A stretch of DNA of 64,000 nt from Streptococcus sp. 29887. GTDB lineage: Bacteria; Bacillota; Bacilli; Lactobacillales; Streptococcaceae. Location: the NCBI RefSeq assembly GCF_032595075.1, contig NZ_CP118735.1:2012001-2076000 (forward strand), read 5' to 3'. The notes beneath the pieces are model-generated. The model made no database searches. It was given only the letters and a program-made list of their open reading frames with translations, and had not been told where the DNA came from. Position 1 is the first letter of the stretch, and the number at the start of each line of letters is the position of its first letter. Made by a program: the position numbers and the translations under genes. This document shows, one piece after another, positions 10,913 to 64,000 of the stretch.

Positions 10913-12326
10913 GGCTCTATAATATCTGTAGTGGGTAAATCCTCTATGGATATTATGGAGTCTTTTTGATTGTAGAAAAAAAGTCCCATATGGCCTATAA
11001 TGAAAAGCAACCAAACTCACATTAGAAAGACTCATATGGAACAACTAAATCTTATCACAAATCTTCTCAGAATTAAAGACAAAAATATCACTATCTCTAA
11101 TGAATATGATATGGGAACTCACTTAGAACTTCATGGTCATTTGGATTATACAGCCCCTAAATGTCCCTCCTGCAAGGGACAAATGGCAAAATACGACTTC
11201 CAAAAACCCTCCAAAATTCCCTACCTAGAAACTGCTGGTTATCCCTTGCTTATCCGACTTAGAAAGCGTCGCTTCAAGTGTAAAGATTGCAGAAAAATAG
11301 CGGTCGCTGAAACTCCTCTTGTCAAGAAGAACCACCAAATCTCCGTCGCTGTTAACCAGAAGATTGCTCAATTACTCATCGAAAATCAAGCAATGACACA
11401 TATTGCACACAGGCTATCTATCTCAACCTCATCAGTTATGAGAAAGCTTAATGAGTTCAAGTTTGAAACAGATTGGAATACCTTACCTGAGGTGATGAGC
11501 TGGGATGAGTATGCCTTCAAAAAGGGGAAAATGAGCTTTATCGCTCAAGATTTCAACTCCCTAAATGTCATAACTATTCTAGACGGAAGAACACAAGCAA
11601 CCATCCGAAACCACTTTCTACGCTATCCTAGAAAGGTTAGAAATCAAGTCAAAGTCATTACCATGGATATGTTTAGTCCTTACTACAAATTGGCTAGACA
11701 GCTATTTCCAAACACCAAGATTGTTCTGGACCGCTTTCACATTGTGCAGCACCTTAGCCGTGCTATGAACCGCGTTCGTATTCTAATTATGAATCAATTC
11801 GACAGAAAATCGCAGGAATACCGGTCCTTGAAACGCTACTGGAAATTGATACAACAAGATAGCCGTAAACTCAGCGATAAACGATTTTATCGCCCTATGT
11901 TTCGCATGCACTTGACTAACAAGGAAATCCTAGAAAAACTACTGTCTTTTTCAGAGGAACTACGACAGCACTATGAACTCTATCAGCTTCTCTTGTTCCA
12001 TTTCCAAGAGAAAAACTCAGATCATTTCTTTGACCTTATCGAACAGGAAATAGCCAATGTTAATCCTATTTTCCAGACGGTATTTAAGACATTTCTAAAG
12101 GATAAAGAAAAGGTTTTAAACGCCATGGAATTGCCTTATTCGAACGCCAAACTGGAAGCTACCAACAATCTCATCAAAGTCATTAAAAGAAATGCCTTTG
12201 GTTTCAGGAACTTTGAAAATTTTAAAAAACGTATTTTGATTGCTTTGAACATAAAGAAAGAGAGAACGAACTTCGTCCTCTCTAGGTGTTAGCTTTTCAT
12301 CTACCCACTACAGTTGACAAAGAGCC
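10913..12326 (+). mobile_element. ISL3-family insertion sequence (1414 bp)
   Basis: The element is bounded by imperfect inverted repeats: left GGCTCTATAATATCTGTAGT and right, read inward, GGCTCTTTGTCAACTGTAGT, both continuing GGGTA. About 22 of the first 28 bases agree. It carries one intact transposase. Usual ISL3 target duplications are 8 bp, but here perfect 70-bp direct repeats abut both ends. Confidence 0.92.
11036..12292 (+). CDS. ISL3-family transposase
   Basis: 418 residues from MEQLNLITNLLRIKDKNITI, the usual ISL3 start; an upstream in-frame ATG at 11000 would add 12 untypical residues. An N-terminal zinc finger (CPSC about residue 40, CKDC about residue 83) is followed by a helix-turn-helix region and the DDE nuclease: D in VITMDMFSPY, D in DRFHIVQH and E in NAKLEATNNLIKVIKR. 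The reading frame is uninterrupted, so the enzyme may be active. Confidence 0.95.
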   Translation: MEQLNLITNLLRIKDKNITISNEYDMGTHLELHGHLDYTAPKCPSCKGQMAKYDFQKPSKIPYLETAGYPLLIRLRKRRFKCKDCRKIAVAETPLVKKNHQISVAVNQKIAQLLIENQAMTHIAHRLSISTSSVMRKLNEFKFETDWNTLPEVMSWDEYAFKKGKMSFIAQDFNSLNVITILDGRTQATIRNHFLRYPRKVRNQVKVITMDMFSPYYKLARQLFPNTKIVLDRFHIVQHLSRAMNRVRILIMNQFDRKSQEYRSLKRYWKLIQQDSRKLSDKRFYRPMFRMHLTNKEILEKLLSFSEELRQHYELYQLLLFHFQEKNSDHFFDLIEQEIANVNPIFQTVFKTFLKDKEKVLNAMELPYSNAKLEATNNLIKVIKRNAFGFRNFENFKKRILIALNIKKERTNFVLSRC

Positions 12327-62212: not shown

Positions 62213-62309
62213 ACTAAAACAGTCTGGGGATAGGGCGTTTTAGCTCAACAACTTAAAACGAAAAATTGTTGACGAACTCCTTTATTTGGTCGAGTTCTAT
62301 CCCACTCCC
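62213..62309 (-). repeat. GGGAGTGGGA intergenic repeat, copy D (truncated, inverted)
   Basis: Read on the minus strand it starts GGGAGTGGGATAGAACTCGA and continues with the AGTTGTTGAGC and CCCCAGACTGTTT segments found in copy A, then stops. Its GGGAG end directly replaces the last bases of the terminal CRISPR repeat. Confidence 0.75.
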
Positions 62310-64000
62310 AATTCCTTATAGGGTTTCTGCAATTGAGACAGGTACTGTGGAAGAAGGTACGAAAGTTATTACCTACTAGTTTCAATTCCTTATAGGGTTT
62401 CTGCAATATAAAGCAAAATCAAACGGGCCTTTCGATTACATGAAGAAAGGTCAACTCGTTTCAATTCCTTATAGGGTTTCTGCAATATGACGTTAACATT
62501 CTTGAAAACAAAGCAGGAAAAACTGTTTTGTTCACTGTGTTTCAATTCCTTATAGGGTTTCTGCAATCGACTACATCGCGGAGAACAAACCAGCAGGTCT
62601 CACTGACCTTTCGTTTCAATTCCTTATAGGGTTTCTGCAATTGTAGATATTATCATCGTACTCATAGAAATAGCACTACACGTTTCAATTCCTTATAGGG
62701 TTTCTGCAATATTGGTGGCTATCGAAGCTGAACTACGTTCTTCACAATATGGTTTCAATTCCTTATAGGGTTTCTGCAATCCTACTGTAGAAGGTTTCTT
62801 CTTCGGAGGTACGGAATATGATCATTACTATTTTGATGAGTTTCAATTCCTTATAGGGTTTCTGCAATGTGCTTTTCACAGTAGCTGTTGAGCGCAGCTA
62901 CAAAGACAAGGACGGGTTTCAATTCCTTATAGGGTTTCTGCAATACTCAGATTTAATCGGGAGAGATTTGAGCGCGTCTGGTTTCAATTCCTTATAGGGT
63001 TTCTGCAATGAAGCTCCTGTTGAAGAAGTTGCTTCTGAAATCTCAATTTGTTTCAATTCCTTATAGGGTTTCTGCAATCGTATCACACGTAACCCACAAA
63101 TTCTTGAAAACAAGTCAGGCAAAACTGTCTTGTTTCAATTCCTTATAGGGTTTCTGCAATGGAGACCATTGACCAAATGGAGGCGCTATACGCAGCCAAC
63201 GTAGGGTTTCAATTCCTTATAGGGTTTCTGCAATCAGGCTCAAGCTCAACGTTTCTTTAACGTAGTTCCTAAGTCGTTTCAATTCCTTATAGGGTTTCTG
63301 CAATAAAGAGTATCAAAAACATCGAACCTTTTGACCTGCCAATTGTTTCAATTCCTTATAGGGTTTCTGCAATCGTCGGAGTCCTTGGCAGTACCGTACA
63401 TAAACCCTGAGGCATGTTTCAATTCCTTATAGGGTTTCTGCAATCTCTACGTGAGATTGAAATCAAACACGCACTTGTTAAAAAAATTAGAAACGGTTTC
63501 AATTCCTTATAGGGTTTCTGCAATAAGGGACAACTCATTGCCATTGAGGCTGAGCTCCGCTCTAGCCAATACGAAAAAGACGGCGAAACTGTATACGGTC
63601 TCGACGTTGTTGGTTTCAATTCCTTATAGGGTTTCTGCAATACAAAGACGCTGAAGGCAAACGCCCGGTAGACTTTATGTTTCAATTCCTTATAGGGTTT
63701 CTGCAATTTGGAATCACCTTGCTTGAGCGCGCTAAAGGTCAAGCGACTGAAAGTTTCAATTCCTTATAGGGTTTCTGCAATGGACGCTTAACACGTGATA
63801 TCCAAATCTTGGAAAACAAGTCAGTTTCAATTCCTTATAGGGTTTCTGCAATACGCTTAACACGTGATATCCAAATCCTTGACAACAAGTCAGGGAAGGT
63901 TTCAATTCCTTATAGGGTTTCTGCAATGATTCAAACAGACTTAAACAACAATTTGCAAACAGGTGTATGTTTCAATTCCTTATAGGGTTTCTGCAATAAT
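62305..64000 (-). CRISPR. CRISPR array, 23 repeats of 29 bp, runs off the right edge
   Basis: The 29-bp repeat reads on plus GTTTCAATTCCTTATAGGGT then TTCTGCAAT; on minus it ends AGGAATTGAAAC, the typical 3' end giving an ATTGAAAC crRNA handle. Perfect repeats start at 62379, 62458, 62539, 62613, 62682, 62752, 62840, 62916, 62981, 63050, 63132, 63206, 63276, 63345, 63416, 63496, 63613, 63679, 63753, 63824, 63899 and 63969. The one at 62305 is degenerate at its handle end, marking the leader-distal end, so the leader and probably the cas genes lie right of 64000. Spacer lengths in order: 45, 50, 52, 45, 40, 41, 59, 47, 36, 40, 53, 45, 41, 40, 42, 51, 88, 37, 45, 42, 46, 41. The subtype cannot be fixed without cas genes; the repeat recalls type I-B/III repeats of Firmicutes. 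Confidence 0.97.

Follow-up and report, generated by a model that had tools for sequence, protein, structure and literature searches.

One ssb gene behind more than a third of the spacers of a streptococcal type III-B CRISPR array beside RT-Cas1

Enzymes of the reverse transcriptase (RT)-Cas1 kind are known to copy RNA into CRISPR arrays. In Streptococcus sp. 29887, a gene for such an enzyme stands beside an array that owes over a third of its spacers to versions of one invader gene, that of a single-stranded DNA-binding protein (SSB, gene ssb). Why should a single gene be sampled so often? The locus provides a natural test of transcript logging; should the focus be driven by the abundance of transcripts, arrays of this type could serve as records of gene expression in unknown mobile elements. 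We analyzed a window of 64,000 nucleotides (NZ_CP118735.1, positions 2,012,001 to 2,076,000) that contains most of the array, together with the genes beyond its right end and comparable loci of other genomes.

Array orientation and the adjacent type III-B operon

The array (G000:C1:2074305-2076361) holds 27 spacers, 22 inside the window and five further past position 64000. Its 29-nt repeat, GTTTCAATTCCTTATAGGGTTTCTGCAAT, is present in 27 exact copies and one degenerate copy. Spacers range from 35 to 88 nt.

62305..64000, minus strand: in-window part of the CRISPR array, 22 of 27 spacers, running on to window-equivalent 64361; repeat end GGAATTGAAAC
62305..62333, minus strand: degenerate repeat at the trailer (oldest) end, 3 mismatches to the consensus

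The crRNA strand is the minus strand on the basis of the repeat end, the degenerate last repeat and the position of the cas genes. These agree with the original prediction that crRNAs synthesized from this strand would be antisense to the mRNA of ssb. Among these clues, the repeat end carries the most weight: on the minus strand it reads ATTGAAAC, which we take to be a crRNA 5' handle of the type III-B kind, and the array that carries it adjoins cmr genes. The leader and cas genes lie at the right end, where 201 nt separate the end of the array from the RT-Cas1 stop codon. Because the repeat end, the degenerate left repeat and the leader and cas side all agree, spacer 27 is the youngest; ssb spacers are scattered between the old part of the array (spacer 2) and the young part (spacer 26). 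A minus-strand promoter-like site in the leader (TTGAAA-17-TATAAT, L029:2228-2200, 11/12 matches) is no better than chance, with one found versus 1.0 expected in the stretch.

Directly right of position 64000, one minus-strand run of genes (L030) adjoins the array. It encodes Cas6, Cmr1, Cas10/Cmr2, Cmr3, Cmr4, Cmr6, a CorA-like protein, a WDGH-domain protein, a CARF-PD(D/E)xK protein, Cas2 and RT-Cas1; the genes for Tsf and ribosomal protein S2 are upstream. Genes for cas10, cmr and RT-Cas1 had been guessed to lie there, and a type III-B (Cmr) operon with an RT-Cas1 fusion is what was found.

L030:8817-10331, minus strand: Cas10/Cmr2; TIGR02577 108 bits (cut-off 79.4), Cas10-Cmr2_palm2 104 bits, GGDD in the translation
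L030 operon, minus strand: Cmr4; 151 bits, above cut-off
L030 operon, minus strand: Cmr6; 92 bits, above cut-off, with a long N-terminal extension
L030 operon, minus strand: Cmr3; Pfam 45 bits, above cut-off; NCBIfam Cmr3 50.7 bits, below the cut-off of 100.4
L030 operon, minus strand: Cmr1; PADLOC 98 bits, no match in Pfam or NCBIfam
L030 operon, minus strand: CorA-like membrane protein; PADLOC only
L030 operon, minus strand: CARF-PD(D/E)xK protein; PADLOC 504 bits, Pfam Card1 under cut-off
L030:2183-2443, minus strand: Cas2, next to RT-Cas1
L030, 201 nt from the array, minus strand: RT-Cas1 fusion, 640-aa ORF; RVT_1 at 74-274, Cas_Cas1 at 315-596, YGDD

Cmr5 has no separate match in the operon; the N-terminal part (about 200 aa) of the Cmr6 ORF is Cmr5-like by eye only. 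The region L030:2454-5672 encodes the CARF-PDDEXK and CorA-like proteins, two likely signalling effectors, with the WDGH-domain protein between them. Within the window, Rfam places an Srn266 small RNA at 10913-11023 (minus strand, 108 bits).

The RVT_1 and Cas1 domains share a single ORF, adjacent to Cas2. The catalytic residues of both domains are intact: the RT has its YxDD motif, and E463, H529 and D541, presumably the Cas1 catalytic residues, are invariant across 13 aligned RT-Cas1 proteins. Elsewhere, the RT-Cas1 proteins of L070:1986-3917 and P0131 have YADN or FADN in place of YxDD. RT-Cas1 is rare in the genus, being found at E 1e-60 in 2 of 284 Streptococcus genomes, the other of which (G283) has a protein 36% identical to this one. 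Close relatives, 98% and 88% identical, are encoded in other strains, the 88% one named S. suis.

Ten spacers from one SSB and the focus on a single gene

Ten of the 27 spacers (37%) translate as pieces of one SSB OB-fold, all in the same sense (plus strand). Nine of them are among the 22 in the window and translate as originally described; spacer 26, beyond the window, enlarges the set.

62408..62457, plus strand: spacer 2, SSB piece KAKSNGPFDYMKKGQL
62487..62538, plus strand: spacer 3, SSB piece DVNILENKAGKTVLFT
62711..62751, plus strand: spacer 6, SSB piece LVAIEAELRSSQY
62869..62915, plus strand: spacer 8, SSB piece VLFTVAVERSYKDKD
63079..63131, plus strand: spacer 11, SSB piece RITRNPQILENKSGKTV
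63525..63612, plus strand: spacer 17, 88 nt (about twice the usual length), SSB piece KGQLIAIEAELRSSQYEKDGETVYGLDVV, a single open frame throughout
63642..63678, plus strand: spacer 18, SSB piece KDAEGKRPVDF
63782..63823, plus strand: spacer 20, SSB piece GRLTRDIQILENKS
63853..63898, plus strand: spacer 21, SSB piece RLTRDIQILDNKSGK
right of 64000, plus strand: spacer 26, tenth SSB piece VGRITRDVQILENKA

Aligned to natural SSBs, the ten peptides fall in order along OB-fold residues ~8-96, in one frame each. Spacers 3, 11, 20, 21 and 26 mutually overlap at about codons 8-29, and spacers 6 and 17 represent a different ssb stretch in two alleles. Counted across all 10 pairs of the five overlapping alleles, differences number 32, 4 and 61 at codon positions 1, 2 and 3, as expected of coding sequence in that frame; since these spacers differ mainly at third positions, they represent at least five alleles. 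One-frame alignment to the OB-fold and mutual overlap identify SSB (PF00436) as the common target. The overlaps between spacers allow their source gene to be named even though the element that carried it was not found.

The longest piece, that of spacer 17 (29 aa), hit 60 phage records by tblastn; among the 40 matches listed, 36 are annotated as SSB and the other four are ‘hypothetical’ or without annotation. It also ranks first among 11,179 spacer peptides in a search with an SSB HMM (E 2.3e-4), which was built from 120 proteins, no spacer peptide included, that came from a search whose query held spacer peptides. Only spacers 8 and 26 of the remaining pieces appear in the same search, neither significantly. 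With an ungapped SSB profile the ten pieces score 23.6-39.4; as the non-ssb spacer 23 scores 25.3, the weakest pieces (6 and 18) depend on overlap or alignment with the others, and for spacer 18 the identification is by alignment alone. The host's own SSB is not the source, the nearest own-genome match outside the array being 48% identical over 27 residues. No position bias within ssb is claimed, because only pieces of the conserved OB-fold can be recognized and spacers from the variable SSB tail would escape notice.

Homology between spacers provides a measure of the focus that applies to any gene. At the protein level, 10 of the 351 spacer pairs of this array are homologous in the same sense and none on opposite strands. 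Same-sense pairs number 0/992 in 13 other Bacillota RT-Cas1 loci (one pair was better in antisense), 1/5,873 in III-A arrays without RT (one more was better in antisense), 3/7,557 in RT-Cas1 loci from other phyla (likewise one more), 2/28,434 in RT-less Cas1 loci (two more) and 0/190 in L093; opposite-strand pairs occur in none of the compared sets. At most 60 spacers per locus entered this comparison, and L196 and L198 were left out of it.

For ssb itself, a comparison is offered by the III-A array of the same genome.

L170:6622-8965 (G000:C1:178621-180964): RT-less type III-A array of the same genome

Its spacers 20 and 27 have the same sequence, which translates as GRLTRNVQIM; these are ssb codons 9-18, which coincide with the site of five ssb spacers in the RT-Cas1 array. 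One spacer of a Clostridia RT-Cas1 array (L076, 12078-12955) reads GRLTSEPTMRNGGTV, from the same start-proximal SSB segment. The count of 10/27 compares with 1 ssb spacer among the 32 distinct ones in this genome's III-A array (Fisher p 0.0015), with at least 4/411 in 17 streptococcal III-A loci (p 1e-10), a count that depends on weak short-peptide scores, and with 1 recognized among the 199 spacers of 15 other Bacillota RT-Cas1 genomes (p 1e-9). These p-values treat spacers as independent, and the contrasts flatter the present array, whose pieces were partly recognized by mutual overlap, those of the other sets by peptide scores alone. On equal terms (ungapped profile score ≥28, sense), the counts are 5/27 (0 antisense) here versus 1/199 in other Bacillota RT-Cas1 genomes and 4/431 (1 antisense) in the III-A sets. 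III-A spacers total 431, or 427 when deduplicated within genomes and 411 when those common between genomes are also removed. Under a uniform draw, at least 10 of 27 spacers would come from ssb with a probability of 4e-13 if the gene is assumed to be 1.2% of a phage genome and 4e-7 if its share is assumed to be 5%. The single-gene focus is real and unusual among the sets compared.

These sets were curated as follows. L074, L092, L145 and L146 (RT-Cas1 by coverage) yielded no array, and G511 had a match to Cas1 only. L081, L082 and L084, ambiguous at first, were oriented by repeat homology to other RT-Cas1 repeats. L093 was kept out of the RT set, G967 and L075 were counted once, and three spacer-like false repeats (L080, L095, L112) were removed by hand.

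It can be dismissed as extremely improbable that unrelated spacers look like SSB in one frame by coincidence: lone short peptides are weak against the SSB profile and spacer 17 alone is significant, but the pieces overlap one another, which excludes chance for most of them, their differences concentrate at codon position 3, and the 10/351 homologous pairs contrast with almost none elsewhere.

Uptake, selection and the origin of the ssb spacers

We favor, with a probability of roughly 0.55, an explanation in which repeated uptake from an abundant ssb transcript is combined with type III selection, acting on a locally common and diverse family of elements. RT-Cas1 and Cas2 would take spacers largely from RNA, in proportion to its abundance, and a heavily made ssb message would be sampled repeatedly as new variants of one element family arrive. 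Spacers unable to pair with mRNA would be lost, leading to a near-complete sense bias. The minus-strand crRNAs would be complementary to invader mRNA, ten of them directed against ssb transcripts, which represent five or more related alleles. On binding ssb mRNA, the Cmr/Cas10 complex is predicted to cut the transcript and make second messengers, which would activate the CARF-PD(D/E)xK and CorA-like proteins of the operon. The presence of RT-Cas1 suggests RNA capture, and its gene forms one run with those of Cas2 and Cmr beside the array; ssb may be, as the original prediction put it, a highly expressed early phage gene. Against uptake stand the 15 other Bacillota RT-Cas1 genomes, which lack an ssb focus (1 recognized/199), and the 13 other RT-Cas1 loci compared, which lack a focus on any other gene. 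RT-Cas1 alone therefore does not produce the focus.

Selection alone is a serious, if less probable, explanation. Uptake could then occur anywhere, from either strand and from RNA or DNA, with only spacers against early, essential and conserved transcripts such as ssb giving protection; ssb spacers would pile up as allelic variants escape older spacers. Five alleles are targeted at the same codons, ssb spacers are spread throughout the array (2 to 26), and the III-A array of the genome independently targets codons 9-18, a site that fits selection or target quality there and not RNA capture. In Thermus, the strand and early-region bias of type III spacers is likewise attributed to selection (PMC7515739). 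However, selection for mRNA targeting alone should favor ssb in both arrays of the genome, because both serve type III systems, and the III-A array has just 1 of 32 distinct spacers on ssb. This difference between two arrays with type III effectors (10/27 versus 1/32) favors a component of uptake, although the arrays may differ in age and exposure; the compared III-A and other RT-Cas1 arrays also lack such a concentration. Since this genome's III-A array, which lacks RT, has also met ssb, acquisition bias and selection are experimentally separable.

At the DNA level, the ssb spacers had no match among 50,697 phage records at E 0.1 and chance-like matches only at E 10; a DNA search of plasmid records did not find their source, and three exact degenerate-pattern scans of IMG/VR viral contigs gave 0 hits. 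In 284 Streptococcus genomes, the spacer 17 peptide was found only in its own array and in two ssb genes of chromosomal look. Absence from the phage, viral and genome collections searched is compatible with a phage source. In two protein searches, the best relatives scored 344 and 383 versus a self-score of 798, less than half, among the best 120 of ~8,000 scored, so that any relative ranked lower would go unnoticed; a separate search scored only two candidates per genome. Spacer 17 also matches plasmid SSBs in 394 records, 302 of them predicted to be conjugative. Its best plasmid match is 55% over the whole piece, on a plasmid typed as non-mobilizable, and its best full-length phage SSB match is 52%. 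By protein comparison, phage and plasmid SSBs are equally distant from spacer 17, and the description of the SSB as ‘phage-type’ is not established.

The remaining spacers give a few indications of their own.

62334..62378, plus strand: spacer 1, reads ETGTVEEGTKVITY and resembles streptococcal surface protein repeats (GTVEEGTK..YVYK), in sense
62642..62681, plus strand: spacer 5, 40/40 identity to a prophage stretch in G255:C12, in the sense of a 40-aa ORF
62781..62839, plus strand: spacer 7, PTVEGFFFGGTEYDHYYFD, weakly similar to Escherichia/Klebsiella phage proteins (E 0.3-2, 63-67% identity)

Spacer 1 has no other own-genome match within 3 mismatches (32/45 nt tested); its source may have been a mobile element or the RNA of a related strain. 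The contig matched by spacer 5 is a prophage with terminase, integrase and HNH family matches; the 40-aa ORF has no PHROG match. Spacer 27 contains, by eye, a ribosome-binding site and start codon in sense. It is possible, but rather doubtful, that the ssb targets belong to conjugative plasmids or integrative elements instead of phages, a reading that concerns origin only and is compatible with the other explanations. The 394 plasmid SSB records match spacer 17 no worse than phage SSBs do, in favor of such an origin, whereas spacer 5 is identical to a prophage stretch and spacer 7 is weakly phage-like. As both are other, non-ssb spacers, they do not settle the source of ssb.

More speculatively, the Bacillota RT-Cas1 arrays in general might be logs of invader transcription, with RNA taken up preferentially from the translation-start regions of abundant early messages (Shine-Dalgarno, start codon and first codons), perhaps as ribosome-protected or 5'-end fragments. 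The present array would then be an extreme case dominated by one ssb message. In the array of the other streptococcal RT-Cas1 genome, G283 (L070:4082-5171), 7/15 spacers start 15-20 nt before a Shine-Dalgarno-preceded ATG (binomial p 2e-5 at 6.6% background). Three spacers of that array have an identical 5' stretch, AGGAAAGAAGGAAAC, and two others have AAAGAGGAAAT in common. Across 16 Bacillota RT-Cas1 genomes, the motif occurs in sense in 29/226 spacers (2 antisense), compared with 21/411 (4 antisense) in III-A arrays and an expected 4-7% of random sense fragments of three phage genomes. The difference between the two sets has p 0.001, which includes G283, the case that suggested the idea, and p 0.019 without it. 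The rate is uneven, with 7/15 in G283, 4/9 in L080, 3/9 in L082 and 0/24 in L078, L085 and L198 together. The present array has 2/27, one of which (ATG at spacer position 38) is possibly fortuitous. The 366 spacers of RT-Cas1 arrays from other phyla, outside the count of 226, include 11 sense and 4 antisense motifs. The idea that RT-Cas1 enzymes in general capture RNA at ribosome-binding sites was retained as no more than a weak lead. The MMB-1 system is described as showing no enrichment for specific RNA regions (PMC11014452), and spacers of RT-less S. thermophilus as enriched 10-50 bp after start codons (PMC9048733).

Strand bias was part of the basis on which strand-selective spacer capture had originally been proposed. 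We scored codon usage, with coding fragments taken from the same loci as calibration; the sense fraction that this implies is 0.98 for this array (23/27 positive) and 0.94 for its 17 non-ssb spacers. The fraction is 0.89 in 15 other Bacillota RT-Cas1 genomes (160/199 positive), 0.92 in 17 streptococcal RT-less III-A loci (336/427) and 0.92 in the III-A array of the same genome (24/31). RT-Cas1 arrays of other phyla have a weaker sense bias (227/366 positive). The RT-less Cas1 loci have none (842/1,617 positive), these being an untyped mix, a few with cas10-like ORFs, whose arrays were oriented by repeat ends, one reversed by hand, and in which wrong turns would push toward 50%. Contrary cases are the small RT-Cas1 loci L078 (2/6 positive) and L085 (2/5), without sense bias, and L093, a Streptococcus Cmr locus with a Cas1 match without RT domain, which is mixed (12/20). 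Sense bias follows type III, not reverse transcriptase. Because type III is about 0.9 sense in these sets, it is unsurprising that ten of ten ssb spacers have the same sense. Selection for mRNA-complementary crRNAs can explain the strand bias by itself, and natural type III arrays are reported to favor the coding strand, the average being about 65% (PMC8482600). We rejected the idea that strand bias marks reverse transcription, the III-A control being nearly as biased. Of the original interpretation, a type III system with RT-Cas1 stands; single-strand targeting does not point to strand-selective capture, since RT-less III-A arrays, including that of this genome, have nearly the same bias.

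An unlikely explanation, for the same reason, is that RT-Cas1 orients spacers by strand at integration, making antisense crRNAs, and that the bias records this strand-specific insertion. In its favor, the bias toward sense is almost total in this array (0.98) and strong in the 15 other Bacillota RT-Cas1 genomes (0.89, n=199), and Marinomonas mutants deficient in interference are reported to have a moderate, RT-dependent bias toward the antisense (functional) orientation (PMC5576922). Nevertheless, RT-less III-A arrays are nearly as biased (0.92, n=427), spacer orientation in Marinomonas is only partly related to the source transcript (PMC5576922), and integration in MMB-1 occurs in either orientation (PMC11014452).

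Comparison with known systems

The RT-Cas1 fusion of Marinomonas mediterranea MMB-1 also carries a Cas6 domain, whereas Cas6 is a separate gene here, and the RT-Cas1-Cas2 of Fusicatenibacter saccharivorans is the Record-seq enzyme. Literature searches returned no report of such an ssb-focused array by title or abstract start, which is no proof of absence. The origin of natural RT-Cas1 spacers has been called enigmatic, with few of 2,054 RT-linked spacers matched (PMC5513706).

The III-B system of MMB-1 likewise has RT-Cas1 and Cas2 beside a Cmr operon (PMC5576922, PMC11014452), and in both systems spacers should be useful only when antisense to transcripts. Its acquisitions are described as occurring in either orientation without enrichment for RNA regions (PMC11014452), while the natural array here is nearly all sense and 37% from one gene. 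The F. saccharivorans system, likened to ours by its description, is also a Bacillota RT-Cas1 and logs transcripts in E. coli (PMC9048733). Type III spacers of Thermus thermophilus similarly focus on an early region and the mRNA-complementary strand; that system differs in having no RT, a hot region of early genes 40-49 in place of one gene, and laboratory infection as its setting (PMC7515739). The III-A (Csm) arrays of Streptococcus have nearly the same sense bias, and that of this genome has an ssb spacer at the same codons, but they are RT-less, with shorter spacers (mean 36 versus 41 nt) and no comparable single-gene redundancy. In S. suis, as described in PMC12479173, III-A and III-B systems are present; the main text of that report does not contain ‘Cas1’ and describes no RT-Cas1 under that name. 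Spacers there are also concentrated on few phage genes, the named targets including holin, tail, portal and terminase (PMC12479173), in contrast to ssb here.
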